A program made the position numbers and the translations under genes. The notes under the pieces are model-generated. The model had not been told where the DNA came from, searched no databases, and worked only from the letters and a program-made list of their open reading frames with translations. 43,279 nt of DNA from a virus: positions 1-43,279 of the IMG/VR virus record IMGVR_UViG_3300012936_000038, one strand, 5' to 3'. Within the stretch, counting starts at the first letter, position 1, and every line of letters starts with the position of its first letter. Below are positions 12,946-31,100 of this stretch, one piece after another.

Positions 12946-12946
12946 T

Positions 12947-14389: not shown

Positions 14390-14395
14390 ATATAT

Positions 14396-14429
14396 AAATA
14401 CACCACAGCCCTAAGACTGTGGTGTATTT
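14396..14429 (-). terminator. Strong hairpin between the two tail-tube genes
   Basis: Arms AAATACACCACAG (14396-14408) and CTGTGGTGTATTT (14417-14429) pair perfectly over 13 bp with an 8-nt loop. It follows the stop of the 505-aa gene and precedes the ATG of the 480-aa gene. It likely limits transcription into, or translation of, the downstream gene; the U tract on the minus strand is poor. Confidence 0.65.
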
Positions 14430-14430
14430 T

Positions 14431-14453
14431 AATTAAATTATTTTAATTTAATT
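14431..14453. repeat. Perfect AT-only inverted repeat
   Basis: AATTAAATTA (14431-14440) and TAATTTAATT (14444-14453) form a perfect 10-bp inverted repeat around TTT, directly beside the GC-containing hairpin and 2 bases from the stop codon of the 505-aa gene. Confidence 0.6.
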
Positions 14454-14455
14454 GG

Positions 14456-15973: not shown

Positions 15974-16005
15974 TTTTTGTGTCTCCTATTTGTAGGTATA
16001 AATGT

Positions 16006-16043
16006 TTGTATAAAATTACATTATGTTTTGTATATTGGGAAAT
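16006..16043 (-). promoter_or_regulatory. Long conserved promoter-like element, tail tube gene
   Basis: On the minus strand it reads ATTTCCCA, then an ACAAAAC block, then ATGTAATTTTATACAA. It matches the element at 28185-28222 in 32 of 38 positions and lies 32 nt before the ATG of the 505-aa gene, with AGGAG in between. Confidence 0.65.
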
Positions 16044-16049
16044 ATTTTT

Positions 16050-16955
16050 TTAACTTCTTGGGAATCTTGCTTGACTAACCTGAAAATCAATAAATCCTAG
16101 ATACAAGTCTGGATTATTTATTTTGTTTGACTTGTCGCTGATTTTAGACGCTTGAACGTCTTGAATAAACATTAAAGGTCCAGGGTGCTGGCAGTTTCTG
16201 ACAGCATCACTGTAACTATAAGAGCCTTGTTTTAAATCGCCATAAGCATCAAAAGGGTGATTATCGTATCCTAAGTTTCTTATAGCCAATTCTCTCGCAT
16301 CAGTGCATACAGACATAAACCCATCCAGTTGATAAAGATCTTCTGCGAACAATATAACTCTATAATTTAATGTAGTAAGATCTTCGCCTCCAAACGCATA
16401 AGGTGTGTTTCTTGAACTTTCCATAGAAATAAACGCTGCTGGAGCTACATGATCATATGGTTCAATCCCAACTCCTTGTGCGTAATTAGGAGTTGTTCTG
16501 CTGTTTACATTATATTTTCCTTGTATAACAAGATTTTCTTCAGTATCGTCGGCTAGATAGATATTGACATCCTTGACTGAAACATCGGTTTTAATTTTTA
16601 AATTTTGATAGTTATTCGGAAACTTATCTCCATCAAGGAGCACTCTTCCATTGTCAAAATCAATCATTAACCCGCTTTGGCCTCTAGGGCAAAATTCATA
16701 ACCATTTCCCATATCAATATGAACTCCGTCTGGGACTTGGGCGTTAGGAATTTCATGATCATAAATCCATTGTTTATATTCACTGCTGTAAGTTGTGAAT
16801 CCAAGTGGATCGCTGGGGTATTGAAGCAATCTTTCGTCTGGGGTATAAAATAGTTCAACTTCTTTATTACTAAAAGCCCCAGCTTTAGTAGACATGTAAT
16901 AGTCTAACCAAAGAGCAAAGCTAGTATTAGCTTCATGTTGAAATTGCGGTATCAT
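16050..16955 (-). CDS. Probable neck or tail-completion protein (301 aa)
   Basis: I do not recognise a named family. The protein starts MIPQFQHEANTSFALWLDYY and is mixed alpha/beta with many aromatic residues. It ends with a beta-rich segment LYLGFIDFQVSQARFPRS. It overlaps the stop of the 205-aa gene by one base (TAATG) and lies between two small connector-like genes and the tail tube gene, the usual place for tail terminator or neck proteins. The function is inferred from position only. Confidence 0.5.
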   Translation of the reverse strand: MIPQFQHEANTSFALWLDYYMSTKAGAFSNKEVELFYTPDERLLQYPSDPLGFTTYSSEYKQWIYDHEIPNAQVPDGVHIDMGNGYEFCPRGQSGLMIDFDNGRVLLDGDKFPNNYQNLKIKTDVSVKDVNIYLADDTEENLVIQGKYNVNSRTTPNYAQGVGIEPYDHVAPAAFISMESSRNTPYAFGGEDLTTLNYRVILFAEDLYQLDGFMSVCTDARELAIRNLGYDNHPFDAYGDLKQGSYSYSDAVRNCQHPGPLMFIQDVQASKISDKSNKINNPDLYLGFIDFQVSQARFPRS

Positions 16956-17572
16956 TATTTAAATATCTTTAAAAACTTTTTTTCCCATGTATTAATAAAG
17001 TGGGATATATATTTTACATTTCTAAATTTTCCCGTGAAAAGACTTTCTTCAGCCTGTATCCCTCCGCCAGATCTTCCTTTTTTTTCTCTAGCTATATAAT
17101 TAGGGTAACCAGACATCCCTAATTCTATTCTTTGGGCCCAGCTCAAGCCTGTAGCCCAAGGCATTGGCGTAACTGAGAAAATTTGCTTGGGCGATGGCAG
17201 CTCTATTGTTATTTTCAGAGTTTTTCTATTTGAGAATCTAGAGACGATTAGGTGCGATTGCTCCAAAAGTTTGATTATAGGAGAAATTGGATCCTCTCCT
17301 TTGTTGAAACCTATAAAAGAAAAAAGGTTACCGTATCCAGAAAGTGTTCCGCTTATGTTTGATGCGCCTGGGCCAGCTAATATCTCTTTTGTGACTGGAT
17401 GAGCTATAAATTCCCTAATCATGCTTTCTTTCATTTTTTCAAAAACTTGATCAAGACTTTGTTTTCCTATAAAAAGATTTTTTCTAATTTGAGTGGCATT
17501 ATTACGCAAAGCTAAAGAATTTATAAACTCTTTATCGAAAGATTTTGCATCTACTGTAAAGACTACACTCAT
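16955..17572 (-). CDS. Probable neck protein (205 aa)
   Basis: No named family was recognised. Helical residues 1-70 (MSVVFTVDAKSFDKEF...) are followed by a glycine-rich segment and a basic C-terminus (WEKKFLKIFK). The overall plan, with an N-terminal helix pair and a region GPGASNISGTLSGYGNLFSF, is compatible with HK97 gp10-like or other head-tail joining proteins. It is linked to both neighbours by one-base TAATG overlaps, so the three genes form one translational unit. Confidence 0.5.
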   Translation of the reverse strand: MSVVFTVDAKSFDKEFINSLALRNNATQIRKNLFIGKQSLDQVFEKMKESMIREFIAHPVTKEILAGPGASNISGTLSGYGNLFSFIGFNKGEDPISPIIKLLEQSHLIVSRFSNRKTLKITIELPSPKQIFSVTPMPWATGLSWAQRIELGMSGYPNYIAREKKGRSGGGIQAEESLFTGKFRNVKYISHFINTWEKKFLKIFK

Positions 17573-18021
17573 TAGTCTGTGGGCCTTAAATAGTAAGTAA
17601 AAAACTTAGGTCTAAATAACCCATGTTTCTTTACATCTGTCACTTTAAACATAATCCTTCCGTCTATCTCTACTCTTTTAGCATCTTTGAAGTATTCATA
17701 ACCTTCTGAATCAAGTTTTATTCTTACTTCTCCTATGTCGTGATGAAGCTTTACCGTACTATCTACTTCTGAATCAAAAGAGACTTCATTCTGCTTGTCC
17801 ATGTACAACACTCTCGCCTTGAGTGTTTTGAATTGAGTTCTATGAAGTGATGTTTTTACGCCTTTAGCATTATTGTAAAGAAAATTAAAATTAGGATCCA
17901 TGCTAACTATGATTTTCTTTGCATCTTTATATGCGAATATTGTGCGAGAAAAAGTCTCATGCATTCTTTGCATGACAGCTTCAAATTGTTGCTTCTGTGC
18001 CGAAGATAAAAAGGAGGACAT
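17572..18021 (-). CDS. Probable head-tail connector protein (about 149 aa)
   Basis: The chosen start is the ATG at 18021 (MSSFLSSAQKQQFEAVMQ); an upstream in-frame ATG at 18045 would add eight residues. An N-terminal amphipathic helix is followed by short beta strands (KKIIVSMDPNFNFLY, IGEVRIKLDSEGYEYF, RIMFKVTDVKKHGLF). The size and the first position in the neck gene block suggest a connector or stopper protein. No motif proves this. It is transcribed divergently from the forward island. Confidence 0.5.
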   Translation of the reverse strand: MSSFLSSAQKQQFEAVMQRMHETFSRTIFAYKDAKKIIVSMDPNFNFLYNNAKGVKTSLHRTQFKTLKARVLYMDKQNEVSFDSEVDSTVKLHHDIGEVRIKLDSEGYEYFKDAKRVEIDGRIMFKVTDVKKHGLFRPKFFTYYLRPTD

Positions 18022-18086
18022 ATAACTATATACACCAATCAGCATACTTTATTGAAAAAACAATTCTACTTATTATTATAATAAAT

Positions 18087-18371
18087 ATGGATCCACAAGA
18101 AGCTATTAATGCTATATACAGCAAGAATACTAAATTGCTGTTTAAGTCTTTTTTAATTCTCATCGAAGATCTCCATAATGAGCATGCTATTAATTTTAAA
18201 AAACTTAAAAAAGCTTTGCCTGATGATTATAAAAGTTTAATTGATCAAGCTGACTATTTTGATCACAATAAGATGCAGTATTTGAGAAAAAAGGTTTTAG
18301 ATATGGGGAACGAAAGCATAAGGGAATCTGAAAACAATTTTGAAAATTTTACTATAAGTTTCAAGTTTTAA
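18087..18371 (+). CDS. Small helical protein of unknown function (94 aa)
   Basis: It starts at ATG 18087 (MDPQEAINAIYSKNTKLLF). An in-frame GTG at 17997 would overlap the divergent gene and is less likely. The protein is almost all helix and rich in K, D and N. TATAAT lies only a few bases before the ATG, so the mRNA leader may be very short. First gene of the forward island; no family recognised. Confidence 0.6.
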   Translation: MDPQEAINAIYSKNTKLLFKSFLILIEDLHNEHAINFKKLKKALPDDYKSLIDQADYFDHNKMQYLRKKVLDMGNESIRESENNFENFTISFKF

Positions 18372-18377
18372 ACTTAT
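18354..18377 (+). terminator. AT-rich inverted repeat at gene end
   Basis: ATAAGTTT (18354-18361) and AAACTTAT (18370-18377) form an 8-bp stem with an 8-nt loop over the stop codon of the 94-aa gene. It is followed by TATAATAATAGG, which may also serve as the promoter -10 of the next gene. Confidence 0.35.
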
Positions 18378-18401
18378 TATAATAATAGGAACAAGGACAA
18401 A

Positions 18402-19166
18402 ATGAATAAAAAAATTATCTATCAATTCACTGTAAATACTGAGAAAGACGTAGAAGAAGAAAAAACTTCTAAGCGTAAAAACAAAGAAACTGGAGAAATG
18501 GAAACCGTCACCACAACTAAAGTTGTGAAAAAATCGGTTCCTACTGAAGTAACTTTATATCAACCTTCCAGGCGTCAAGTCGAAGATGCCGATATGGAGT
18601 TCAGTATTGAAATGAGTAAGTGCATCAAAAAGGGAATCCTTACAAAAGCTATGCTTGCAAAGAAATATAGTGATACTGGAGGCTTAGTATCGGAGGAAGA
18701 TTCTCAAAGACTCACCAGGTTATATAAAGAACTTGGCGAAACAACCACATCTTTAGCAAGATTTCAAGACAAGAAAAAGAAATCTGAAGCTGAAAAAGAA
18801 AAAGAAGCTGAACTTACTGAACTCTTTGCTATTTACAGAAGAGAGATAGTTGATCTAGAAACTGGTTATCAAAACCTTTTTAATCATACAGCTGATACTA
18901 AAGCCCAAAACAGGGCCATACTTTGGTATATGTTAAACCTCTCTTTCTTTAAAACCGAAGGTGAATCTGAAAAACCTTTCTTTCAGGGCGAATCTCTTGA
19001 GGAAAAAGAAGATTCTTATTATGAGCTAGAAGAGTCTGGCGATGAACTTTTTGAGCTATCAAGAGAGAAGATAATGACTTTTATTAGTTTTTGGTATTTT
19101 AGTCAAAATCCATCCGAAGAAGACTTTAAAAATCTGGAACAAGAGCTTGAGGCAGAATTAGCCTGA
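18402..19166 (+). CDS. Possible tail assembly chaperone, first partner (254 aa)
   Basis: The protein begins with a beta strand (NKKIIYQFTVNTEKDVEEEK), then a charged segment, then a long helical part with coiled-coil character at about residues 110-150 and an acidic C-terminus. An AAGGA ribosome site precedes the ATG. It ends in TGA directly followed by a second TGA and then the GTG start of the next gene in the same frame. Position near tail genes and pairing with a helical protein suggest a tail assembly chaperone pair, but there is no sequence proof. Confidence 0.5.
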   Translation: MNKKIIYQFTVNTEKDVEEEKTSKRKNKETGEMETVTTTKVVKKSVPTEVTLYQPSRRQVEDADMEFSIEMSKCIKKGILTKAMLAKKYSDTGGLVSEEDSQRLTRLYKELGETTTSLARFQDKKKKSEAEKEKEAELTELFAIYRREIVDLETGYQNLFNHTADTKAQNRAILWYMLNLSFFKTEGESEKPFFQGESLEEKEDSYYELEESGDELFELSREKIMTFISFWYFSQNPSEEDFKNLEQELEAELA

Positions 19167-19169
19167 TGA

Positions 19170-20150
19170 GTGGAACTCAAAAGTTACAGAAAACTTTTAA
19201 AAGAAATATCTGACGGTTTTTCTGTTTACTTTATAGGTGAACAAAGGTGCTTTATTAAGCACCAATCTAATTCTGACTTAGTAGATTTCGATGATGTCTA
19301 TGATGCTTATTTCTCTATGGCAAGAAAAAAAGGTTTGCCTACAGAAAAAGAAATCTTTGAGAACTTAAAGAAAGAAGAGATCTGGTCCGAAGAAGATGAA
19401 ACAGCAATAGAATCTCAGTCTTTTTATGTAGAAAGCTTAATTAGAAATAAAAAGAATATAGTCCTTAAGAGTGCTTTAGAGCAAGTTAATAAACAAATAA
19501 AAGAAGCTCAAGAAAAACTAGACGAATTAAAAAACAAAAAATCTAGTTTATCTGCAAACAGTTGCGAGTCTTACGCCTTAAACAGGGCTAATGATTTTTA
19601 TATAGTCAATAGTTTTTACAAAGATAAAGATTTTAAAGACCCACTTTATTCTACAGAAGAATATGAGTATGCTGAAGTTTCAGAAGTTTCTTCTTTGGTT
19701 TCGCATTACAATAATTTTCATGAAAGATTTAGTGAGCTATCTATACAGAATTTAGTTTTGCAAGATTTTTATAGAATATATTATGCCTTTTGCGAAACTT
19801 CTAGAGATTTTTTTGGTAAACCAATTATGTGTTTAACTAATTTTCAGCTGAACTTAATAATATATACCAGAATATTTAAGAATATCTTTGAAATGAACGA
19901 AGATATTCCAGAAAAAATAAAACAAGATCCAGAGGCTCTTCTAGATTTCGCTAACTCATCAGAAGCAAGAGAGGACATGAAAAATAAATTTTCTGGAGAT
20001 AAAGGGGCCTCCACTATTGTAGGAGCAACAAAAGAAGACATGGAGGAATTAGGTCTACAAACAAATACTGGAGTAAGCTTATCAGAAGAAGCCAAAAAGA
20101 AAGGTGGATCTTTATCGATGAAAGACTTAATGGATTTGAGCGGCGCTTAG
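19170..20150 (+). CDS. Possible tail assembly chaperone, second partner (326 aa)
   Basis: It starts with GTG at 19170, directly after two in-frame TGA codons, so it is most likely translated by reinitiation after the 254-aa gene. Residues about 90-130 form a coiled coil (VNKQIKEAQEKLDELKNKKS). The C-terminus is polar with a lysine-rich tail (SEEAKKKGGSLSMKDL). Helical content and location fit a tape measure chaperone or an accessory tail protein. No enzymatic motif was seen. Confidence 0.5.
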   Translation: MELKSYRKLLKEISDGFSVYFIGEQRCFIKHQSNSDLVDFDDVYDAYFSMARKKGLPTEKEIFENLKKEEIWSEEDETAIESQSFYVESLIRNKKNIVLKSALEQVNKQIKEAQEKLDELKNKKSSLSANSCESYALNRANDFYIVNSFYKDKDFKDPLYSTEEYEYAEVSEVSSLVSHYNNFHERFSELSIQNLVLQDFYRIYYAFCETSRDFFGKPIMCLTNFQLNLIIYTRIFKNIFEMNEDIPEKIKQDPEALLDFANSSEAREDMKNKFSGDKGASTIVGATKEDMEELGLQTNTGVSLSEEAKKKGGSLSMKDLMDLSGA

Positions 20151-20184
20151 TTTTTAAGTGTATATAGTTTTTGTATAAAGAGTT

Positions 20185-21528
20185 ATGGAAACTATAAAAA
20201 TAAGATATCTCGATCCCGCTGAAGATAGCAATGTAACAGAAAATAGTTACTTGGCTCTTGATCTTAACGAGAATGATAAAAAAAATAATTCGGAAGAATT
20301 AAATCCAAGAATTACGGTAAAAGCTACTGTTTCTCAAATATCAAAATCTATATTTGGAGGCAGTCCTCCTTTTAAAAGAAGGCCAGATGGCGGTGTTGAA
20401 ATTGGTATTGGGGATATTGCCTTAGATGAAGACGGAAATCCTTTGGTTCCTCAGCCTCCAGTTGTTATCAAGCAAGGAGGTGCAGAAAAGATAGTTATAA
20501 ATGACGAAGGAATATTCCTAAAAGACAATACTACTTTTGAAAAAAATGTAACAATTAAAGGTGGTTTAAATGTAGAAGGTAACTCTACTTTTACTACTTT
20601 AAGCGCATCCGCAGTAAACGCAGACTTGGGTATGTTTAAGACTTTAAACGTTTCTGGAAGTGCTGACTTTTTAGGTCAAACAACATTTGGAATAGGTCCA
20701 GTAAAATATAATAACGAAGAAGTTTTAGCTTTAAACTACGACGCTTCTAATAATGGAAAAGTTTTAAAAATTGTAAATGGAGAATTATCTTGGGAAGAAG
20801 ACTTAAATCCAACGATTCCAGACTTATCTAACTTTATCGAGAAAAACGATAATATCTCTGAATTAAATAATGATTCTGGGTATATAACTGCAAGTGACAT
20901 TCCCCCTACAGCTGCTCCTTATGCCCACCCAAATCACTCTGGAGATGTCACTTCTGTAGGCGATGGCGCAACTACAATTACAGATGGAGCTGTAACTAAC
21001 TCTAAGATAGCTAACAACGCTATTACTGCAAATAAGATTTCTAACAACGCTATTAATGAAAACCATATAGCCCCTGGATCAATAACTTCGGATAAAATAT
21101 CAAATACAGTAGTTATTGGTGGAGGCGGAGGCGTTGAACTTAGAAAATTTACAGTACACAATAGCACGACACTTAAAATTGATTGTGCAGAAACGGAGGC
21201 ACTAACTTATATCGGGGGTGCCGCCTACATCAATATCAATTACATAAGTATCGTGTATGCAGTCGGTGGGCAGCCAAGGTATCATCGCACTTTGTGGACA
21301 TTTAACGGGAGAACTAAAAAACTTAGGCACAGTGGGGGCACTTACACACTTACTACATCTAACATAATGATTGGTAGGGAGAATGATTCATATGGCATAA
21401 ATGCAAGATATGATTCAGGCGTACTGTATATAGAAACAAGTGGAAATTCATACACATCCAGCCAATTTGATGGTGGGAATAGTGATAACAATTTTATTGA
21501 TACAAACTTCTTAGTGATAGATGCATAA
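20185..21528 (+). CDS. Tail fibre protein 1 (447 aa)
   Basis: The N-terminal module (residues about 1-110) is shared with the 647-aa fibre: TIKIR(Y/N)L..AED...(T/D)NSYLAL, then RITVK.T(V/I)SQ, then PLVPQPPVVIKQGG or its equivalent. This is probably the attachment domain. It is followed by beta-helix-like short repeats (TIKGGLNVEGNSTF, LNVSGSADFLGQTTF), then repeats of S/N-K-I-x-N-x-A-I, a GGGGG hinge and a distinct C-terminal tip from about residue 320. The tip uses more G/C-rich codons than the rest, a sign of module exchange. Probable receptor-binding role. Confidence 0.75.
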   Translation: METIKIRYLDPAEDSNVTENSYLALDLNENDKKNNSEELNPRITVKATVSQISKSIFGGSPPFKRRPDGGVEIGIGDIALDEDGNPLVPQPPVVIKQGGAEKIVINDEGIFLKDNTTFEKNVTIKGGLNVEGNSTFTTLSASAVNADLGMFKTLNVSGSADFLGQTTFGIGPVKYNNEEVLALNYDASNNGKVLKIVNGELSWEEDLNPTIPDLSNFIEKNDNISELNNDSGYITASDIPPTAAPYAHPNHSGDVTSVGDGATTITDGAVTNSKIANNAITANKISNNAINENHIAPGSITSDKISNTVVIGGGGGVELRKFTVHNSTTLKIDCAETEALTYIGGAAYININYISIVYAVGGQPRYHRTLWTFNGRTKKLRHSGGTYTLTTSNIMIGRENDSYGINARYDSGVLYIETSGNSYTSSQFDGGNSDNNFIDTNFLVIDA

Positions 21529-21529
21529 C

Positions 21530-21754
21530 ATGAAAATAACTGTAGTAAATTCAACTGGCACTTGCTGTTTTCATAAAATTTATGAAGCACAGATCGGAGA
21601 TATTATTAGTAACTTTGAGATTAATGAGGGTCGAGGAACTCGAAGATTAGAAATATTATCTAATGAGGGTAGTATTGATCAGGTGAAATCAATACTTTCA
21701 GAAGAAATAGAGCAAGAGCAAGTAGTCATCTGGGAATTTGATGCAACTACATAA
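21530..21754 (+). CDS. Small protein after fibre 1 (74 aa)
   Basis: The chosen start is the ATG at 21530, one base after the stop of fibre 1; an upstream ATG at 21521 would overlap the fibre gene. The protein has a beta-rich start (MKITVVNSTGTCCFHKIY) and an acidic end (EEIEQEQVVIWEFDATT). Its placement right after the exchanged fibre tip suggests it travels with the tip, perhaps as an assembly helper. No family recognised. Confidence 0.5.
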   Translation: MKITVVNSTGTCCFHKIYEAQIGDIISNFEINEGRGTRRLEILSNEGSIDQVKSILSEEIEQEQVVIWEFDATT

Positions 21755-21811
21755 TGGGTACTCTTTCACAGAGGAAGCAGTTCCGTAACTCTATAACTGA
21801 ATTCAAGTAAG

Positions 21812-23755
21812 ATGCAGACAATAAAGATAAGAAACCTAACTTCTGCTGAAGATAACACTTTAACAGATAATAGTTATTTAGCTTTAGCACTTAACGATAA
21901 TGATACCAAGTTAGGATCTGAGGACCCTCAAAATGTAAATCAAAGAATAACTGTAAAGACAACTATATCTCAGTTAAGAAAAGTTATTTTGCCTACAATA
22001 GGAGATTCTCCCCCTGTTTCTGAAAATGAAGAAGGTGGTATTGATGTAGGGATCGGAGATGTGATTTTAGATGAAAACGGAGATGCATTAGTCCCGCAAC
22101 CTCCAGTAGTTATAAAACAGGGTGGCAAAGACCAAATAAAGATCACTGATGACAGAATATCGCTAAAAGAAAATGTGACTATAGAAAAAACTCTCCTGGC
22201 TATTGGTGGAGTCACCACGCTTGGCCCAAGTTCTTTCAACGGAATTACAACTTTTGCTGGTTTTACTAATTTTATTGGACCTACTACTTTTAGTGATACG
22301 ACTACTTTTAACCGTGACGCTTTTTTTAATGAATTAACTAATGACCCATCTCCAACAGAGGGAAAAATTTACAGAAAGTCTGACGGTCTATATTTCAATG
22401 GTTCTAAACTTTTAACCGAAGGACAAGGAGGAAAATGGATAGACGGAGACTCTTCTGGTGATATAGTTTATAATGCAGGTAAAGTTGGTATTGGTACTAC
22501 GAGTCCTAGTGCTGAGCTTGAGATCGGAGATGGAACTGGTGGTGCTAAAGCTATAAAAATTAAATCAGGTGGAGGGACTAGTGGAGACTTGATTTTTGAT
22601 TCTGCATCTGATGAAGGTATGTTAAGATATGAGCATACAACGGATTCAATGAGGTTTCACACAAATGGATCAGAGCAAGTGCGTATAGACTCTAGCGGTA
22701 ATGTCGTTTTTGCTGGGCCAAATTCATTTAGAAGTACTAGCAATGCTGACTATAAGCTTGATGTTTCGGGATCTGGTCGATTTATAGATTGGTGTACTAG
22801 TTATCGTACTACGCATACCGACGGCAGATACGCTAATTCAGATTATTATCTTTTGTTGTTGCAATATGATACAAGGTCATATGTAAGTGGTGAACTAACA
22901 GGTTTTCGCGGAGGTAGTACTGCGCAAGCTCGTACTTTGCATACGACTTTTCAAGCTAATTCTACGAGTTATAAGGCTTCTGGCCAAACTGAAGGCATTA
23001 TGATGATGTCTAAAGGCCCTGGCATGTTCGCTAATCAAGATAGGATGAAAGGGTTTTACAGCGTAGTATATAATGGTAATAAGTATTTAGCTTTACATTT
23101 TGAGCCTGGGACTCTTTATCATGCCATGACCTGGGAATTCCAAGGTCGAATAAAACTTGAAACTTCCGAAAACGAAGCAAACTTTTTAAAAGTTATACAC
23201 ATGGATGATTTGAGTGAAATTACTGCGCAGGCTCAGTACACAACTATTAACCATGACTTTTATGCGTTAGATAAAAAAATTGGCATTGGCAATGCGGCTC
23301 CTGGTTACAAGTTGGATGTTAATGGAGACATAAACTTTACAGGTGATCTATACAAGGATGGTGTTCTTTTTGTGGGAGGAGGAGGTTCATCAAATATATC
23401 AGACGTTACTGGTTTGCAAGCTGCACTAGACAATAAACTCGATAAACCCGCAGCTAATTCAGAGCCTACTTTTGTTGATTCCGATATTAATTTAAAAACA
23501 AATATTTCCCCTATTGAATCACCAATAAAATCTCTTGAAAGTATAAGAGGTGTTAATTTTGAATGGAAAAAAGAATCTAACAAATCAGGCGAAGACCAAG
23601 GCCTTATAGCTCAAGAGGTTGAAAAGATTATTCCTAGCGCAGTTAAAAAAGGAGAAGACGGATACCTAAAGGTAGACTATACAAAACTAGTTCCTTTTTT
23701 ACTAGAGGCAGTGAAAGACTTAAGTAAAAGAGTAAAAGAATTAGAAAAGAATTAA
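21812..23755 (+). CDS. Tail fibre protein 2 with S74 intramolecular chaperone (647 aa)
   Basis: The N-terminal module matches fibre 1. Residues about 215-310 carry the common fibre signature KVGIGTTSP and ELEIGDGTGG. The middle (about 320-500) is a unique, probably receptor-binding part. The last 90 residues match the peptidase S74 or endosialidase-type chaperone: SDINLKTNI (likely self-cleavage before or near S557-D558), W in NFEWKK, GLIAQEVE, and a closing coiled coil KDLSKRVKELEKN. That domain folds the trimer and is then released. Its stop overlaps the stop of the convergent 443-aa gene. Confidence 0.85.
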   Translation: MQTIKIRNLTSAEDNTLTDNSYLALALNDNDTKLGSEDPQNVNQRITVKTTISQLRKVILPTIGDSPPVSENEEGGIDVGIGDVILDENGDALVPQPPVVIKQGGKDQIKITDDRISLKENVTIEKTLLAIGGVTTLGPSSFNGITTFAGFTNFIGPTTFSDTTTFNRDAFFNELTNDPSPTEGKIYRKSDGLYFNGSKLLTEGQGGKWIDGDSSGDIVYNAGKVGIGTTSPSAELEIGDGTGGAKAIKIKSGGGTSGDLIFDSASDEGMLRYEHTTDSMRFHTNGSEQVRIDSSGNVVFAGPNSFRSTSNADYKLDVSGSGRFIDWCTSYRTTHTDGRYANSDYYLLLLQYDTRSYVSGELTGFRGGSTAQARTLHTTFQANSTSYKASGQTEGIMMMSKGPGMFANQDRMKGFYSVVYNGNKYLALHFEPGTLYHAMTWEFQGRIKLETSENEANFLKVIHMDDLSEITAQAQYTTINHDFYALDKKIGIGNAAPGYKLDVNGDINFTGDLYKDGVLFVGGGGSSNISDVTGLQAALDNKLDKPAANSEPTFVDSDINLKTNISPIESPIKSLESIRGVNFEWKKESNKSGEDQGLIAQEVEKIIPSAVKKGEDGYLKVDYTKLVPFLLEAVKDLSKRVKELEKN

Positions 23756-25083
23756 TAATCTTTCTTTGATTGTACTATCATTTTATAGGCGCCATCTTCA
23801 CCAGCTACTTGCCTTGGTTGAGCGCCATACATATTGTAATTGTAAACGAGCTGCTTTATCTTTCTGTCTGCGTCCTCTGAGAGGGCTTTAAAGTCCTTAC
23901 TTAATGCTATTCTATTGCTGGCAGATGAAGCGGAGCTTCCAGGACTTCTTCTAATAGTAGTATCTCCTTCTGAGAGTTCGGTCCATTCAGCTTCATTTTG
24001 TACAACGCTAGCCATTGAGGTTTCGTCATAAAGTCCCCTCATTATTTTTTGAGCCTGTTTTGTGTTGTAATCTCTCATGTAGAGTTGCTGGAGGATGTCT
24101 CCTTCTTCTTTTCCTAGTCTAGGGTATGGATTTCCATCACAACCAGTAAAGCAAAAAGACTGATTCAATAATATATTTAATTCGCCAAGCCTTCCACTAA
24201 GCGAACCAGATACTGTATAAAGTTCACTTCTTACTGGACCCTCTCCTGTAATGTAATCAAATTCAAACTCAACTAGCTGTTTTGCAAGAGCTCCTATTTG
24301 ATTTAAGTTTTCCTCAAAATAGCAATTTGTGCATTCATCAACTCTTAGGTAATAGCCAGTATTTGGACATGGTGAGGTGGGATCTGTAGCGTAATTTGGG
24401 GATATGAAGGGAGGAACATATGATCTGCTAATTCCACTAATTCCACTGCCAGTAACACCACTTGCATTAATGATGCATTCAGAATGATGGTGATGGTGGT
24501 GGTGTTCCTCTGTATGAGCGCAACTGTGGCTTTTCTCTATTTTTCCTAAAGCTTCTGCTACTCCACTTAATCCTTCAGTTAATGCATCGGCTATTTTTGG
24601 TAGCTCACTAAGTTCCTCTGAAGATGGTCCGCTGTTTATGCTTTCTCCTTGAACTGTAATAGCTCCTTGAACATCAAGATCTCCTTGAATATTTACATCG
24701 CCTTCAGCTGATACGTTTCCGTTTTCAATAGAAAAAACATTTTCTTCACCACTTTGATCAGGATCTCCAACGACTAAAGTGTCAGTGACAACTGAATTTT
24801 CACTGACTATAGTCGGAGACCCCAAAGAAGAAGAAACTTCTACAAAAGCTCCAGTTTCATGATCATTAGAAAGCTCGCTAGAAACTTCTAAATACGTGCT
24901 TGTTTTGCTAGTTATGGAATTCGTTTCTTCTACCGAAGTTCCTTTATTGATAACTATAGAGTCACCCAAGCTAAATATAGAAGTATCTGATATATATAGC
25001 CTAGTGCTGCCTTTACTAGCAGCCTGCGATATAGCCCTAGAGACCAAAGACGAAGCACCTTCGTTAGAGCTATATTCAGTCAT
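23752..25083 (-). CDS. Structural protein with natural seven-histidine run (443 aa)
   Basis: The N-terminal half is beta-rich with repeats of the fibre type (NVSAEGDVNIQGDLDVQGAITVQG). It is followed by a short helix and then a cluster of Cys and His: HSCAHTEE, seven consecutive histidines (residues 194-200), SEC. Later Cys pairs (ECTNC, FCFTGC) add to likely metal binding. The C-terminus is helical (SNRIALSKDFKALSEDADRKI). It lies directly after a small head gene. It may be a fibre or spike-like attachment on the capsid or neck; the exact role is unknown. Confidence 0.55.
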   Translation of the reverse strand: MTEYSSNEGASSLVSRAISQAASKGSTRLYISDTSIFSLGDSIVINKGTSVEETNSITSKTSTYLEVSSELSNDHETGAFVEVSSSLGSPTIVSENSVVTDTLVVGDPDQSGEENVFSIENGNVSAEGDVNIQGDLDVQGAITVQGESINSGPSSEELSELPKIADALTEGLSGVAEALGKIEKSHSCAHTEEHHHHHHHSECIINASGVTGSGISGISRSYVPPFISPNYATDPTSPCPNTGYYLRVDECTNCYFEENLNQIGALAKQLVEFEFDYITGEGPVRSELYTVSGSLSGRLGELNILLNQSFCFTGCDGNPYPRLGKEEGDILQQLYMRDYNTKQAQKIMRGLYDETSMASVVQNEAEWTELSEGDTTIRRSPGSSASSASNRIALSKDFKALSEDADRKIKQLVYNYNMYGAQPRQVAGEDGAYKMIVQSKKDY

Positions 25084-25084
25084 A

Positions 25085-25486
25085 TTACTGATCCTTTATT
25101 AAACTTAACAAGCTTTTACCTTGCTCTGAATTTGGATCAACGATAGGTCTCGTAACTTGAACTACGTTTCCTTGTCCTTGCTCCCATTTTTTAAAAGATT
25201 TAATTAACTTTGTTTTTAGCATCATTTTTGTTCCAGAAGGAAACACGCCAGCTTTCACAGCCAGAGATTGCATTTCGCTTAGGTTCATGTTTTCCAGATT
25301 GCTTTCAAATGTACTTGCATCAGATTCTGCAAAAGGGTTTTGCTCAGTCATTCCGAGGGCAGCTTCTAGATTTCTCGTGGCGGTGGCCTCTTCTTGCATA
25401 TGATCTTTGCCGTCTGCAAATTCCATGGTTTTTTTAGGTTCTACCTTTTTTGCAGTAGACTTTTTGGTTACTTTTTTTCTTGGCAT
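25085..25486 (-). CDS. Small basic/acidic head-region protein with SAP-like segment (133 aa)
   Basis: The start is placed at ATG 25486 (MPRKKVTKKSTAKK), which has an AAGGAGAAAGGA ribosome site; the longer frame to 25543 lacks one. A lysine-rich N-terminus is followed by an acidic middle and a C-terminal helix-turn-helix-like segment, LSEMQSLAVKAGVFPSG, which resembles SAP/HeH DNA-binding motifs. It lies just after the capsid gene terminator with its own promoter-like sequence. Possible roles are head-tail joining or DNA contact in the head. Confidence 0.55.
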   Translation of the reverse strand: MPRKKVTKKSTAKKVEPKKTMEFADGKDHMQEEATATRNLEAALGMTEQNPFAESDASTFESNLENMNLSEMQSLAVKAGVFPSGTKMMLKTKLIKSFKKWEQGQGNVVQVTRPIVDPNSEQGKSLLSLIKDQ

Positions 25487-25510
25487 AATGTTATCCTTTC
25501 TCCTTGTTAA

Positions 25511-25522
25511 ATTATTATACAC
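25511..25522 (-). promoter_or_regulatory. Promoter-like motif GTGTATAATAAT
   Basis: On the minus strand this variant of the GTGTAAT motif follows the capsid terminator and precedes the 133-aa gene with its Shine-Dalgarno sequence. Confidence 0.5.
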
Positions 25523-25532
25523 TTGATTAAAC

Positions 25533-25560
25533 AAAAAATCCACCAGAAGGTGGATTTTTT
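25533..25560 (-). terminator. Rho-independent terminator after the capsid gene
   Basis: A perfect 12-bp stem (AAAAAATCCACC with GGTGGATTTTTT) has a 4-nt loop and ends in a run of six T on either strand. It lies 27 bases after the stop of the major capsid gene. Confidence 0.9.
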
Positions 25561-25586
25561 GAGAAGTTTGAGTGGAAAATAAAAGA

Positions 25587-26693
25587 TTAGCTCTTTACGA
25601 ACTTCAATCCAGTAAGTACACGATCATCAAGGATCATGCGACCTTCTTCCATGGATCCGTAGTATCCAATCTTGGACTGACGAACACTGTATTGATCATC
25701 AGCAACCAAGTTAAGCTCAGTTCCAGTTTCGGAATCAACTGCAACTGCACGGAACAAGGACTCACGGGAACGGTCAAGACCGATAATAAGATCGCGAATA
25801 TCTTCGTCGCTTCCTACCAAGGTATCGAATACCTTGGTGAACTTTTGGTTACCATTGCCTGCACTACCTGTTGCGTTATTTTCACCAAGCTCATTGATTT
25901 CCATGATGCTAATACCGTAGAATTCAGGAATTCCAGCGTTGTTGTAAATAGCTTCACGCATCGAGTCAGTTGCAGGAATGTCTGTTTTGGCACCCGTGTG
26001 AACTGGTTGATAAGCCAAGGACCTCAATCCTTCAACTTGCTCAGGAGACATAATCAAGTCAGTGATGCCCTTGATGCGTCCACCTTCTGGAGCGGAACCC
26101 GTCCATGCGGTGTTGATCCTCTTTGCAAGAGTGAGGATTTCGTTGAAATCTGCAAGATTCAAAGTCTTTCCTGCAGTTCTGCTAAGAAGGTGATCTTTTC
26201 CGTTTGTCTTAGCTTCCTTAAGAGCTCCCAAGATCAAGTTAGCAGAAGTAGCTTCTTGACGAAGTAGGATTTCCTGAGCGATACGGGTAAAGGTCTTGCC
26301 AACAACATCCATGCGGGACTTGGCTGCATAGCGCTTGTCAAAGTCAACAGCGGTATCGAGACGATACGTGCTGAACTTCATTTCCTGACTGGTAGGAGTC
26401 ACGGTGTTAGTGGGCAATCCACCAGGAACAGTCGTGCTGTATACCTTTACGTAATCAGGTGCGGTAATGTCATAATACAAGTCAAGCGGAATGCTTGGGC
26501 TGTCCATTTCATTGAACTGGAAGTTCGTGAAAAGGTTACTAAGAGTAGGAGCCTGATTGACAACTTCAGCGAGGACAGGTCCGATAAATTCGGCCAAAGC
26601 TTGCTGGGCCTCATACGCAACCTCACGATTGCGGGATGCCATTGCCTTTACAAGTTCTACTTGTTCTTCAGTTCTTTTGAGTGTGATTTTCAT
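25587..26693 (-). CDS. Major capsid protein (368 aa)
   Basis: This is the strongest capsid candidate by order (terminase, portal, protease, decoration, capsid), length, an AGAGAGGA ribosome site, G/C-richer codons and a strong terminator. The helical N-terminus (residues 1-50) is followed by an alpha/beta body with a segment YRLDTAVDFDKRYAAKS, a long helix (ARIAQEIL-like at about 135-165) and a C-terminal strand region, compatible with the HK97 fold. It assembles into the icosahedral shell. I cannot name the exact capsid family. Confidence 0.82.
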   Translation of the reverse strand: MKITLKRTEEQVELVKAMASRNREVAYEAQQALAEFIGPVLAEVVNQAPTLSNLFTNFQFNEMDSPSIPLDLYYDITAPDYVKVYSTTVPGGLPTNTVTPTSQEMKFSTYRLDTAVDFDKRYAAKSRMDVVGKTFTRIAQEILLRQEATSANLILGALKEAKTNGKDHLLSRTAGKTLNLADFNEILTLAKRINTAWTGSAPEGGRIKGITDLIMSPEQVEGLRSLAYQPVHTGAKTDIPATDSMREAIYNNAGIPEFYGISIMEINELGENNATGSAGNGNQKFTKVFDTLVGSDEDIRDLIIGLDRSRESLFRAVAVDSETGTELNLVADDQYSVRQSKIGYYGSMEEGRMILDDRVLTGLKFVKS

Positions 26694-26722
26694 TTTTGTT
26701 ATTGTCCTCTCTTTATTTAAAA

Positions 26723-27439
26723 TTAAAGATCAAGATTGATGATGTAGTAAGCTCCGTCGGTTGAGTCACCAGCAAAATAGTCTTCTTGCCCATCAGTTCC
26801 ACCGAATTGACCGTCTCTGTCTCCTATGCCGAGCAAAGTTCCAACTTGTGCGTTTTTGTTGCTGTCATCGTCTTTAGTGAACTTTCCATCAGCGCCACAG
26901 TAAACTGGGCCAGCTGCTAGAACTCCGTTAACACCTGCAACGCATGCAGACTTAGCAACTGTAATTACGCCCTTTGTCAAAACAGGAACAACTTCACCAG
27001 GAAGAACTCCGTAAAGATCTTCAAGCTTTTGACGATAGTAGAGAAGCTTTTCACCGTTCTCATCAAATGCGAGAGTTTGACGAAGAGTTACACCTAAAGG
27101 ACGGTCTCCTGCGCCTGCTACTTCGAAAGTAGGAACAGCAGCTGGATATGCGTTATGAGCAACATGCGGGAAATTATCCTTAGAAGCTCCAAGGTATGCG
27201 TCAAGTTTAGTTTTGTCGGTAAGCGCTGTATTAGCCAGTGCATCGTTATGATATCCTGCTGGATCAAGCCCTGCCCAAGATACGTCGTTCTTTACCAAAA
27301 CGCCAGCGTCATGAGATCCACTTGAATCCTTGTCTGCTTTAAAGTCTTCGAGTTTATCTTCACTGCCAATTTTCAACCTAAAGAGGTTGATTACGAAGTG
27401 TTCGTTATATTGTCTGAATGGAAGTAGTCTATTTGCCAT
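26723..27439 (-). CDS. Probable head decoration protein (238 aa)
   Basis: The protein starts MANRLLPFRQYNEHFVINLF. It is rich in G, A and D with few basic residues. The stretch YGVLPGEVVPVLTKGVITV is typical of small beta-barrel head decoration proteins. Codon use is G/C-rich like that of the capsid gene, suggesting high expression, and the order just before the capsid gene supports a decoration or head-stabilising role. An AGAGGATAA ribosome site precedes the ATG. Confidence 0.6.
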   Translation of the reverse strand: MANRLLPFRQYNEHFVINLFRLKIGSEDKLEDFKADKDSSGSHDAGVLVKNDVSWAGLDPAGYHNDALANTALTDKTKLDAYLGASKDNFPHVAHNAYPAAVPTFEVAGAGDRPLGVTLRQTLAFDENGEKLLYYRQKLEDLYGVLPGEVVPVLTKGVITVAKSACVAGVNGVLAAGPVYCGADGKFTKDDDSNKNAQVGTLLGIGDRDGQFGGTDGQEDYFAGDSTDGAYYIINLDL

Positions 27440-27457
27440 TTTATTATCCTCTAATTT

Positions 27458-28162
27458 TTATAGTTGAATTGTTACGTTGTCTTTTGAGAAAGCTTTTTTG
27501 AATTGTTCTCTAAGGGACAAATCTTCTTCGGTTGAGTCAGCGTTATTGTTTGCAACAGCTTCTTCTTCAGCTTCTGCATTTTCAATAGCTTCTTCTGCAA
27601 CCTCTTCGCTGGAAGCTTCTACGGTTTCCTTTTCGGAAAGTTCGCCCAAACGTTTTTGAACTTCTGCTTCTAGCTTTTCATTGAAAAGTTTTTCTTGTTC
27701 TTCCTTGAAAGCTTTTGTTTTGTGCTTCCAAGTAACAGAAAGCTTAGACTTGTATTCGTCATAAGCTTTTGCTTCTTTGATACCTTTAAGTTCAGAAGCG
27801 ATGATGATACGATCTTCGTCTTCTAATTCAAACATGTCATCAAGTTCACTCATTCTGTCGTTAAAACGATCAGCTTCTTCACGAGCTTCGACTTCAGTCT
27901 TGATTTTTTCAAGATCTTCATTAACAGATGCGAGTTGAGTCTTAAGAGCTTCAATTTCTTTTGCAGACTCTTCAGAAGCTTTTACCAAATCTTCTTTTTG
28001 GTTTTCAAGAGCTTCTTTGTCTGACTTCCATTGTTCACTCTTGTCAACAATTGCGTCGTGAAAGACCTTGGTGATATTAGCAATAGCCTCTTGAGAAAGT
28101 TTCTTTTCAGAAGCTTGAGCCTCGAGAGTTTCGGTTAGTTGTTTGAGAATTTCTTGTTCCAT
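27458..28162 (-). CDS. Predicted separately translated scaffold protein (234 aa), internal start
   Basis: Codon 289 of the protease gene is an ATG (MEQEILKQLTETLEAQ) preceded by CCAGGACAAAAC, a good ribosome site. About 20 bases further upstream lies a copy of the long promoter-like element also found before the tail tube gene. Everything downstream is coiled coil. Phages such as lambda make scaffold this way from inside the protease gene. The internal product is predicted and not proven. Confidence 0.55.
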   Translation of the reverse strand: MEQEILKQLTETLEAQASEKKLSQEAIANITKVFHDAIVDKSEQWKSDKEALENQKEDLVKASEESAKEIEALKTQLASVNEDLEKIKTEVEAREEADRFNDRMSELDDMFELEDEDRIIIASELKGIKEAKAYDEYKSKLSVTWKHKTKAFKEEQEKLFNEKLEAEVQKRLGELSEKETVEASSEEVAEEAIENAEAEEEAVANNNADSTEEDLSLREQFKKAFSKDNVTIQL

Positions 28163-29026
28163 GTTTTGTCCTGGTTTTTGATTCTTGTTTAAAATTACAT
28201 CGCGTTTTGTGTAATGGGAAATTTTTTCTGTAAAAATATTATTAGAAATTTTAATTTTTTCGTAAACAGGGTTTTCACAGGCTTCAGAATCTTGCTTTTC
28301 GATCATCGTTAATCCTTTTACTTCAGCGGCTGGATTGGCAGTAAATCCGATGCCTAAAGGATAAATGTCGCCCATAATTAATCTGCTTACTTTTTGGCCT
28401 TTGTCTGTTTTTCCACTTCCACCATAAGCCTTTAAAAATTGTTTATAATCATCTTTCTTTTCACCTTCAACGATTTCGCATTGATGCAGATCGTCTCCGC
28501 CTACAGCGATAGCATAATCATTGAATCCAATTTCCCAGCTTGCGGAAACCATTTGATAATTTGCACTGTTTTCATTAACAGACTCTTGTACTAGTTCTGC
28601 GAACTTAGGATTTACGCTTCTATATACAACTGCTGATAAAGCAATATTAAAAGGACCATCTATACTAGAGGCTTCTTCTGGAGAAATTAGTTCATTGGTT
28701 CCAAACTTAGATAATGAAGATCCTACGATGTGCCCAACTACTTTTTGTTTGTTGTGCTCAATATTAGCTGGTTTATGAATAAAATAATCTTTTATAGCTA
28801 TTGCGGTTGCGGAATCTATTCCGTCTCCGTTTTTATTGAACTTATTAGCTACCGCTGCGTTAAAAGCCACACCAACCAAATCGATATTTTTTTCAAGATC
28901 AATTCCTTCAGGCATAATTTCCTGAAGTGAGGTCAAAGAAGCAAATGATTTTAAATCTTTTTTATCTAAATCTGATAAAACAACAGTTTCAGCAAAACTT
29001 GTAGTATATTTAAAAGGAAGATCCAT
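27458..29026 (-). CDS. Prohead protease fused to scaffold (522 aa)
   Basis: Residues about 30-250 resemble the phage prohead serine protease fold: KPANIEHNKQKVVGHIVGS supplies the likely histidine and SASWEI (about residue 160) the likely serine. Residues 289-522 are a long charged coiled coil, typical of a scaffold (delta) domain, with an acidic end. The protease cuts scaffold and capsid during head maturation. An in-frame internal ATG at 28162 could give scaffold alone. The gene is directly preceded by a GTGTAATATA motif 9 nt before the ATG, without a Shine-Dalgarno sequence. Confidence 0.75.
   Translation of the reverse strand: MDLPFKYTTSFAETVVLSDLDKKDLKSFASLTSLQEIMPEGIDLEKNIDLVGVAFNAAVANKFNKNGDGIDSATAIAIKDYFIHKPANIEHNKQKVVGHIVGSSLSKFGTNELISPEEASSIDGPFNIALSAVVYRSVNPKFAELVQESVNENSANYQMVSASWEIGFNDYAIAVGGDDLHQCEIVEGEKKDDYKQFLKAYGGSGKTDKGQKVSRLIMGDIYPLGIGFTANPAAEVKGLTMIEKQDSEACENPVYEKIKISNNIFTEKISHYTKRDVILNKNQKPGQNMEQEILKQLTETLEAQASEKKLSQEAIANITKVFHDAIVDKSEQWKSDKEALENQKEDLVKASEESAKEIEALKTQLASVNEDLEKIKTEVEAREEADRFNDRMSELDDMFELEDEDRIIIASELKGIKEAKAYDEYKSKLSVTWKHKTKAFKEEQEKLFNEKLEAEVQKRLGELSEKETVEASSEEVAEEAIENAEAEEEAVANNNADSTEEDLSLREQFKKAFSKDNVTIQL
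28185..28222 (-). promoter_or_regulatory. Long conserved promoter-like element inside the protease gene
   Basis: On the minus strand it has ATTTCCCA, an ACAAAAC block and ATGTAATTTTAAACAA, identical to the tail tube element at 32 of 38 positions. It lies just ahead of the internal scaffold start, in coding sequence for the region between protease and scaffold. Confidence 0.6.
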
Positions 29027-29030
29027 AAAA

Positions 29031-29042
29031 CATATATTACAC
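29031..29042 (-). promoter_or_regulatory. GTGTAATATATG motif before protease gene
   Basis: The motif lies so that 9 nt separate GTGTAAT from the ATG. There is no Shine-Dalgarno sequence in between, so the transcript may be nearly leaderless. Confidence 0.6.
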
Positions 29043-29055
29043 GGAAAAAAGTTTT

Positions 29056-31062
29056 TTATTTATTTATTTTTTTACTGTGATAAAGTATGGCGGCTGGATA
29101 AGAAACAAGTTCATGTTTTTCTCCAACTTCTAAAACATTACTCATTACATCAAGTGATTCGATATTATTAAAATCTTCGATGCAGGCTTTAACAGTACTT
29201 TCCCAGTTTTCCATCTCATTAGACATAACAACACTTTGAGTTAAGTCATCAAGCATTTCTTTCTGCTGTTTAGATAACCTTTTTTTATTGTACTGTTTTT
29301 TTAAACTTGCCTCTGAGTATTTTCTTAGATCTTCTATTTTGTATATAACATTTTGAATATCTTTTCTGCTATGAGTATCTTGAGCAAATATTTTATCAGT
29401 ATTTGTATTTGTTCCAGCTGGCCTACCGTTCTCTCCTGGGACTTTTGGCTTTTGGGCAGGTTGATCGGCTGAATCATCTGGTAGTATTGGTTGAGCAACA
29501 GCAAGTGGAGTATAGTATCCTTTTTCTCTGTCTTCCACGAATTGTTCTTGTGCAGATTTTAAGTCTTTTGGATCTGGGTAAATACCTTGCTTTAAAGCAG
29601 TCATTCCTTGCTCAGGAGTAATAATTCCCATTTCTATTAATCTTGATGCTACTCGTTGTAGTTGAACTTCATCTTTAATATCTATTTCCACAAACTTTGC
29701 TTGAGGGAAATTTCTAAAACCCATGATTTTGCAAACCTCTTTTATTTGAGGCTGCAATACGTCATTAATAAATGCGTTGCGAGCTTCTTTTAATCTTTCT
29801 AAAAAGATTTGAGCTTTAACTTGTGTGCTAGAATAATTTTCTTTGCCTACAATAATATTTTGAAGTCCTTCTTTAATATCTTCGTTTACGATTTGATATT
29901 TAGTTGGGCCAAGAACTTTATTTAAATCAGGAATAATAAACTCTGCTTTAGTTGTATAATCTGCTATCAAAGCCCTTCCGATACTTTCATTTTGAAAAAG
30001 CTGTTGCATTGCTTTTAAATTATTCGGATTTACTCCTCCTTTGTCTGGAGTGTTGCCCATTGTGACTAGCAGAATTACATTTTCAATTGTTCGTGTAATA
30101 GCCTGATCGACTTTTTTCAGCTCCATTTTCCAGTTGATATCGTCGAGAACTGAGAATCCAAAAGGAATGGCAAATGGTTCATAATCTTGCTTTTTGTAAA
30201 AAGAGAAAACAAGTTTTTGAGGATCAAGGTATATCTTGATCCCATCTTTGACATATTGATTTTCTGTAATTTTCTTCTTTGCTTCTGGGGGCAAAGCTTC
30301 AAAGACTTCTTTATCGTATTCAGTTTGAGGACTTTTTAATCTTTCGATATCGTACTCGCTAAGAAGCTTTTTGTATACGCCATACTTTTCTCCAAAATTT
30401 AAGGTTCTATCCGCTACAAAATCATAAGGATTAAGAAATATATATTTTATAGGAATCTTTCTGCCTGGAACGATAGAATCTGCAGCATAAATTTGATTAA
30501 GTTTAACAAGGTCTTCAGAAGTAAACTTGCCATCTATTTTATAAATAAAAACATTACCAGATCTATAGTATTCCCTAAAGTATTGATCTTTTAATTTCCA
30601 AGACTCTATTCGATGCAACCATTTTTCTATAAATTGCCTAGACTTATCCGAACCCCCCTCTAAGTAAATATCAGAGTTTGCAAACTCAGCCATAACGTCA
30701 ATTGCATTACGAAATATAGGTACATTAGCATATGCTTTTTGGCACATGTGTATTGAATGCCTTGGCGATACATAACCTTTTGAATATTCATAAGGCAGTT
30801 TAAGAGCATCTATGTTTTTATAAGAGTTTGGCTTTTTAGCTATAGGAGCTCTGTTTCTTCTTAACCTGCTTGATTGTTCTTCATCGATTTGGCCTACATT
30901 CCTAGTAACACAAGAGGCTTCAGTGTAGTAGGCTTCTCCAGCGCTTGCAGGGACAATTTCTTCATTTACATTTTGTAGAACTTCTTCAATATTTGAAGGG
31001 CTTTGTTCTGCTTGGCTGAATTTATTCCAATAGTCTGATCGCTTCGTATATTTTCTTGGCAT
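29056..31062 (-). CDS. Portal protein (668 aa)
   Basis: The dodecameric portal forms the DNA channel of the head. Support comes from order (next after large terminase), length, and the alpha/beta body with YANVPIFRNAIDVMAEFA, FREYYRSGNVFIYKI and a long C-terminal helix region (STQVKAQIFLERLKEARNAF) that matches portal stem and wing layout. The N-terminal 85 residues and the C-terminal 130 residues are polar extensions. GTGTAATATAATTT lies directly before the ATG. Confidence 0.8.
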   Translation of the reverse strand: MPRKYTKRSDYWNKFSQAEQSPSNIEEVLQNVNEEIVPASAGEAYYTEASCVTRNVGQIDEEQSSRLRRNRAPIAKKPNSYKNIDALKLPYEYSKGYVSPRHSIHMCQKAYANVPIFRNAIDVMAEFANSDIYLEGGSDKSRQFIEKWLHRIESWKLKDQYFREYYRSGNVFIYKIDGKFTSEDLVKLNQIYAADSIVPGRKIPIKYIFLNPYDFVADRTLNFGEKYGVYKKLLSEYDIERLKSPQTEYDKEVFEALPPEAKKKITENQYVKDGIKIYLDPQKLVFSFYKKQDYEPFAIPFGFSVLDDINWKMELKKVDQAITRTIENVILLVTMGNTPDKGGVNPNNLKAMQQLFQNESIGRALIADYTTKAEFIIPDLNKVLGPTKYQIVNEDIKEGLQNIIVGKENYSSTQVKAQIFLERLKEARNAFINDVLQPQIKEVCKIMGFRNFPQAKFVEIDIKDEVQLQRVASRLIEMGIITPEQGMTALKQGIYPDPKDLKSAQEQFVEDREKGYYTPLAVAQPILPDDSADQPAQKPKVPGENGRPAGTNTNTDKIFAQDTHSRKDIQNVIYKIEDLRKYSEASLKKQYNKKRLSKQQKEMLDDLTQSVVMSNEMENWESTVKACIEDFNNIESLDVMSNVLEVGEKHELVSYPAAILYHSKKINK

Positions 31063-31063
31063 A

Positions 31064-31076: not shown

Positions 31077-31100
31077 CAAAGTCTAGCAAAGTCTACTTTA

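Follow-up and report, generated by a model that had tools for sequence, protein, structure and literature searches.

We analysed a 43,279-base record from IMG/VR (IMGVR_UViG_3300012936_000038; hereafter, the window), which is a partial genome of an uncultured tailed phage. The window contains two copies of a 38-nucleotide (nt) element: one, which we call E1 (positions 16006-16043), lies upstream of a tail tube gene, and the other, E2 (positions 28185-28222), lies inside a gene for a fusion of a prohead protease and a scaffold protein. The most plausible role of the element is that of a promoter of the form TTC[A/C]CA-N15-TGTA, with transcription predicted to start at an A that is 13 nt past the T of TGTA. 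E1 and E2 would form a dedicated class of phage promoters that has no other strong members and is likely read by a phage sigma factor that resembles the extracytoplasmic function (ECF) type. We put the probability of this reading at roughly 0.78. The parts of the two sites, with their predicted positions relative to the start, are:

16036-16041, minus strand: E1 -35 box, TTCCCA (predicted -34 to -29)
16017-16020, minus strand: E1 -10 core, TGTA (predicted -13 to -10), exactly 15 nt from the -35 box
16007, minus strand: predicted E1 transcription start (A)
28215-28220, minus strand: E2 -35 box, TTCCCA, inside the protease-scaffold open reading frame (ORF)
28196-28199, minus strand: E2 -10 core, TGTA, with the same exact 15-nt spacing
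28186, minus strand: predicted E2 transcription start (A)

Two similar sites upstream of structural genes

The terminase, portal, protease-scaffold, cement-like, capsid-like, and tail genes of the window lie mostly on the minus strand. E1 and E2 are both oriented 5' to 3' on this strand, as are the genes downstream of them. The initial annotation, which was made from this DNA alone, had reported that the two copies agree at 32 of 38 positions and that one is intergenic while the other lies in a coding sequence. Direct comparison of the reverse complements confirmed the 32 identical bases, and a repeat finder lengthened the pair to 43 nt (84% identity). The ORF positions agree as well: E1 is between ORFs 16050-16955 and 14456-15973, 32 nt upstream of the ATG of the latter, and E2 is within ORF 27458-29026, 22 nt upstream of an ATG at 28162 that is in frame and encodes residue 289 of the fusion.

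A third copy is absent from the window: a search with ACAAAACNNNATGTAATTTTA, allowing up to 3 mismatches, gave 2 hits (and the reversed pattern, used as a control, gave 0). The 11-mer ATGTAATTTTA alone was not enriched in the window (51 matches with up to 2 mismatches, versus 49 expected). In 11 first-order Markov simulations, no pair of 38-mers, direct or inverted, reached 32 of 38 identities (the best had 31). Three diagonals of the real window reach this level, namely E1/E2, a self-complementary hairpin at about 14396-14429, and two paralogous genes. Taken alone, the simulations give moderate support for the E1/E2 likeness. With the comparative data from relatives, the case becomes decisive.

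Conservation of both sites in related phages

An exact-core scan of IMG/VR identified five contigs, and in every one of them the element lies either at the scaffold joint or upstream of the tail gene. Among related scaffold genes, we kept the best 80 of 370 stretches, and the resulting 81 aligned rows contain 60 unique upstream sequences. The pattern TTC[A/C]C[A/T]-N15-TGTA is present in 58 of these 60 E2 regions and in 19 of 23 regions upstream of tail genes. Spacings of 8-14 or 16-23 nt did not occur in the E1 or E2 regions (0 occurrences). By eye, the two E2 regions without a match (L064 and L071) differ at one base of the box. The four E1 regions without a match (L092, L100, L101, and L095) belong to later copies in arrays of tandem tail genes, where the leading copy carries the site. 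Upstream of more distant tail genes, the spacing is still 15 nt, and the box reads TTCATA, TTCTCT, TTCTCA, or TTCCTT.

We also examined later relatives, which were found with a distant query and in metagenome-assembled genomes (MAGs). These 41 loci yielded 25 unique new sequences (3 were cut before the site and 13 duplicated either earlier sequences or one another), and the strict pattern matched 20 of the 25, versus 0 of 779 background windows. Across 29 records, 17 had a match to the strict pattern, at 23 places in all, versus 3 places for the reversed pattern. We listed 39 loci or records with both sites, a listing in which one site may recur with different start codons. Among the 25 distinct E1/E2 pairs, the fourth base of the box is alike in 21 and the sixth in 24, which is no more than suggestive, as the clades are related.

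Thus the comparison with related phages that the initial annotation had proposed finds both sites kept. The phages that appear to carry them are uncultured and for the most part marine. The initial annotation had considered common descent of a coding segment unlikely. This explanation can be excluded, as the motif is kept both in noncoding DNA before tail genes and in scaffold coding DNA, with the same geometry.

Specificity and constraint at the DNA level

We scored sites with a matrix derived from distant relatives. In the window, E2 and E1 scored 34.7 and 31.6 bits, and the next site scored 6.2 bits. In a 137.7-kb relative (G001), which has only two strong sites, the scores were 35.0 and 32.1 bits, versus 12.4 bits for the next site. 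Each type of site also finds the other. With a matrix built from the coding sites only, the noncoding site came out top, or was surpassed by E2 alone, in 11 of the 13 records. With one built from the noncoding sites only, the coding site came out top, or was surpassed by the noncoding site alone, in all 11 records. The initial annotation would have taken the lack of further copies as evidence against a promoter; this fails as a test, since two sites per genome is the rule.

Codon usage indicates that E2 is under constraint at the DNA level within the coding sequence. The valine codon within TGTA is GTA in 60 of 60 sequences, versus a background of 30%. The serine codon in E2 is TCC in 31 sequences, TCA in 27, and TCT in none, even though TCT is the commonest serine codon in these genes. 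After the sequences were collapsed to 21 with less than 70% identity, GTA remained at 21 of 21, with 14 TCC and 7 TCA. Other conserved valine or serine columns have mixed codons, both before and after collapsing.

The predicted start, and TGTA sites without a -35 box

In three relatives, the first T of a GTGTA falls exactly 13 nt upstream of the ATG in 14 of 309 genes, versus 0.06 expected on the basis of internal ATGs. In 28 of the 309, GTGTA is found 13-17 nt upstream of the start (about 0.4 expected). In the window, GTGTA-type sites at 13-17 nt before start codons are found at 31062, 29026, 42853, 37947, 37164, 14389, and others. Such a placement would suit promoters that start at or beside the ATG and give nearly leaderless mRNAs. 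We found no -35 consensus among the 29 GTGTA-type sites that we examined. Counted across the whole genome with one mismatch allowed, GTGTAATATAA shows no enrichment; it is only its position ahead of start codons that is enriched.

Applying the geometry of the GTGTA genes to E1 and E2 puts the predicted start on a conserved A and the -35 box at -34 to -29. Conservation peaks at +13/+14 after the T of TGTA, and the predicted start A is conserved in 93% (E1) and 85% (E2) of sequences. The -35 box might make the two structural promoters stronger than the TGTA-only sites, or might alter their timing.

Two familiar promoter types do not account for the element. Housekeeping sigma-70 promoters (TTGACA, 16-18 nt, TATAAT) were rejected because E1 and E2 are absent from the 53 sigma-70-like sites at 12000-31900; consensus scans for sigma-70 promoters and terminators gave no excess (53 sigma-70-like sites versus 60.7 expected in that region). 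A T4-type late promoter (core TATAAATA, with no -35 box) is ruled out by the TGTA core and by the conserved -35 box at a fixed spacing.

Some of the TGTA sites without the box have features of their own. The promoter-like site of the portal gene (31066-31120, minus strand) has AACTTTT-like repeats, and AGACTTT is conserved upstream of the portal TGTA in nearly all of the relatives shown; it is perhaps a regulator site. At 37889-37947, between a PhoH-like gene and a small gene, are divergent TGTA promoter-like sites within about 58 bp. G001 and G017 have the same arrangement.

A candidate sigma factor

The window encodes one candidate for the protein that reads E1 and E2:

35480-36226, minus strand: ECF-like sigma factor, candidate promoter reader, with region 2 and a region-4-like end

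This protein matches Pfam Sigma70_r2 above the cut-off, and residues 21-224 match TIGR02937 (E = 1.1e-9; 38.1 bits, versus a cut-off of 42.9). An ECF sigma factor has regions 2 and 4 but lacks region 3. The sigma factor is present in all 32 of the 32 related loci that reach at least 8.5 kb upstream of the scaffold gene. We infer from this co-occurrence that the phage's ECF-like sigma factor is the likeliest reader of the promoters. Host RNA polymerase would then associate with the phage sigma factor, whose region 2 would contact TGTA and whose region 4 would contact the -35 box.

The conserved columns of the sigma family include a cysteine-rich insert and a C-terminal GYkQiKN block. The insert, which has the form CxxC...C...C and lies between the two regions of the protein, is perhaps a zinc site.

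Six MAG contigs with relatives are named as Flavobacteriaceae, uncultured bacterium, Verrucomicrobiales, Neomarinimicrobiota, Patescibacteria, and Halobacteriovorax. These names point to no single host. Matches to a looser form of the element in four MAGs are due to chance, as control counts were about equal or higher in all four.

Alternative explanations

Several observations weigh against E1 and E2 being promoters read by a phage sigma factor. The sequences that we compared are related and hence are not independent. Since TGTA seems to be used elsewhere without the box, some other protein may bind the box. Five of the later relatives (L221-L224 and L246) have, by eye, TTCACA-N15-CGTA at E2; in contrast, G030 and L246 from this subclade keep TGTA at the E1 tail site. 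In G040 and G041, the tail site has TTCTCT, and the coding-site matrix ranks it 4th and 5th. The noncoding matrix, which is weaker, gives runner-up sites that score near the true site (17.7 versus 22.4 bits in G001 and 20.7 versus 21.5 bits in G030), so weaker promoter sites may exist. Finally, the sigma protein is below the NCBIfam cut-off, and among 13 records of at least 28 kb it was missing from 4, which are presumed to end before its place.

The chief rival explanation, given the TGTA promoter-like sites that lack the box, is a separate activator. The TTCMCA box would be bound by a phage activator, like the MotA box of T4 middle promoters, where the activator binds at about -30, and the core would be read by another sigma factor, from the host or the phage. 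This is possible, but we consider it doubtful: although at the 29 sites with no -35 consensus the core apparently functions without the box, the spacing between box and core is invariant, as expected if one sigma factor spans both, and the candidate sigma factor has a region-4-like part. It is improbable that the element is instead the target of a repressor or of another DNA-binding regulator, rather than a start site. A fixed bipartite site with just two strong copies in a 137.7-kb record would fit an operator too, but the information peaks at the predicted start, and the TGTA core is common to promoter-like sites. Furthermore, an internal start codon lies just downstream of E2, and the capsid gene is not preceded by a conserved TGTA site (see below).

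We think it very unlikely that the element acts in the mRNA to influence translation. In the window, it is 22-33 nt upstream of start codons, but neither E1 nor E2 has RNA structure (z = 0.4 and 0.6), and the TG-to-ATG distance is variable (25-37 nt in E2, more in E1) although the inner spacing is constant. The remaining explanation is chance, or a conserved scaffold peptide that resembles the intergenic sequence by accident. The peptide K-x-S-[H/Q/L]...V is indeed conserved in the linker. Nevertheless, we give this explanation almost no weight, as other conserved valine and serine columns lack the fixed codons seen at the element, and the noncoding tail site is conserved independently. The surviving reading is the one that the initial annotation had put forward, a second class of promoters that serves structural proteins needed in large amounts, and the comparisons of sequences support it.

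The predicted E2 unit

The features of the predicted E2 unit are:

27458-29026, minus strand: prohead protease-scaffold fusion gene
27458-28162, minus strand: predicted scaffold protein from the internal in-frame ATG
28169-28172, minus strand: putative ribosome-binding site (AGGA) before the internal start
26723-27439, minus strand: gene 2 of the unit, cement-like head protein (Pfam PF22758, E = 5.4e-5, which is below the cut-off)
25587-26693, minus strand: gene 3 of the unit, probable major capsid protein
25532-25561, minus strand: terminator hairpin after the capsid gene (minimum free energy -18.2, z = -6.2)

In a structural model of the fusion, the N-terminal domain (residues 41-231) matches the T4 protease gp21 (Z = 9.8) and the maturation proteases of herpesviruses (Z up to 9.0, for the varicella-zoster virus protease); a Foldseek search with this domain gave E = 2e-3 and a probability of 0.98. 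Residues 245-289 of the model are disordered, and residues 286-466 are mostly helix, with helix 286-305 at the head of the scaffold. Because the protease domain is followed by a disordered stretch and then by a helical scaffold, the model places E2 in a disordered linker, and Met289 opens the scaffold domain. This methionine is present in all 81 aligned rows and in all 25 of the later unique sequences, which bears out the internal scaffold start of the initial annotation. The linker varies in length and sequence among relatives despite the constant methionine. A site like AGGA before the internal ATG is not evident by eye in most of the distant relatives. The scaffold protein had no match in the phage collection that we searched.

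The product of 25587-26693 is probably the major capsid protein, on the weak evidence of its position and a match to a PHROG major head protein (E = 0.008). Among ten proteins of the window, only the terminase had a PHROG match at 1e-3, and PDB sequence searches with the sigma, tail, scaffold, and capsid proteins yielded no informative match.

A hairpin with a run of T's follows the capsid gene in 19 of the 19 relatives shown (by eye). We did not find a conserved TGTA site in the 60 nt upstream of the capsid gene in relatives; stray TGTAs occur there within codons, as in L011 and L132. Given the hairpin after the capsid gene and the lack of a TGTA site before it, E2 plausibly feeds the scaffold, cement-like, and capsid-like genes on one mRNA. 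The mRNA started at E2 would be shorter, and translation from its first in-frame ATG would yield only the scaffold; the cement-like gene, the capsid-like gene, and the terminator would come next. As this mRNA would encode the scaffold without the protease, the scaffold and the capsid protein could be made in excess over the protease.

The predicted E1 unit and other features

The features of the predicted E1 unit are:

14456-15973, minus strand: major tail tube protein gene
15983-15987, minus strand: putative ribosome-binding site (AGGAG) of this gene
14396-14429, minus strand: terminator-like hairpin between the tail tube gene and its paralogue (minimum free energy -23.5 kcal/mol, z = -5.7)

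The AlphaFold2 model of the tail tube protein is of moderate confidence (mean predicted local distance difference test score 63.9, predicted template modelling score 0.70). In a Foldseek search of PDB, it matched the major tail protein 8xan (E = 1.3e-10) and also 9iny and 8ed0 (E values ranged from 1e-10 to 3e-9). The tail tubes of T5 and P74-26 were among the matches. By this fold match, the modelled product is a tail tube protein, which is the name that the initial annotation gave it. A hairpin like that at 14396-14429 recurs before the second tail tube paralogues of relatives. E1 plausibly drives the tail tube gene alone, in a unit that would be closed by the hairpin.

The 3' arm of this hairpin overlaps the GTGTA promoter-like site of the second tail tube paralogue. 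Elsewhere in the window, two adjacent plus-strand genes have a duplicated 5' end (20185-20278 and 21812-21905; 77% over 94 nt). On the minus strand, 1-5004 is a long tape-measure-like ORF with repeated FIPNFA-type motifs, and 6202-12945 encodes a 2,247-amino-acid protein with many repeat domains of the FxxWxxxSG type.

Relation to known systems

In phage lambda, the scaffold Nu3 is encoded in frame within the 3' part of the protease gene C and is made from an internal translation start. The phages studied here share the in-frame scaffold at the 3' end of a protease gene, but unlike lambda, they have a promoter-like element before the internal start. (Interactions of lambda C and Nu3 are described in PMC3224144.)

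An excerpt of PMC2949831 locates the UL26.5 promoter of herpes simplex virus 1 within the coding sequence of UL26, and the overlap of UL26 and UL26.5 in herpesviruses is described in part of PMC4498786. As in UL26/UL26.5, the fusion gene has an N-terminal protease and a C-terminal scaffold in one frame, with the scaffold alone predicted from an internal start. More specifically, we found an N-terminal prohead protease fold, which is of the same fold class as the herpesvirus protease, an in-frame internal scaffold start, and a conserved promoter-like element that stands at the right place for an internal promoter. Unlike in herpesviruses, the putative promoter is of a bacterial type and has a twin before a tail gene, and the mRNA predicted from it goes on to include the cement-like and capsid-like genes. 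The parallel would be one of working, and we do not claim that the regulatory arrangement is homologous. In searches of Creative Commons-licensed papers in PubMed Central for phage sigma factors, promoters, and nested scaffolds, no title among the matches listed dealt with such an arrangement in phages.

The cited excerpt of PMC1524935 gives the core of T4 late promoters as -13 to -6. Control of late genes by a phage sigma factor (gp55 in T4) would be a point of likeness, and the T4 core, as given in that excerpt, starts at the predicted place of TGTA. Unlike the T4 late consensus, the two structural promoters have a strict -35 box. The usual boxes of ECF promoters are of the GGAAC/GTC type. 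The element resembles these promoters in having two short boxes at a near-fixed spacing and, in our proposal, a sigma factor with regions 2 and 4, but its boxes are TTCMCA and TGTA.

Phages need hundreds of copies of the capsid, scaffold, and tail tube proteins and few copies of the protease. We give even odds to the broader proposal that this lineage has both a herpesvirus-style nested scaffold promoter and a supply of capsid and tail tube proteins that is tied together by a two-copy, sigma-read promoter. If so, a solution to the dosage of protease and scaffold can be read from the sequence, as one strict promoter in two places, one of them in the joint between protease and scaffold. E2 is also a clear case of DNA-level constraint inside a gene. 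A phage sigma factor would gain a defined candidate regulon of two targets, in phages whose scaffold has no match in the phage collection searched. If the proposal is true, the supplies of capsid and tail tube proteins would be coupled through one dedicated type of promoter.

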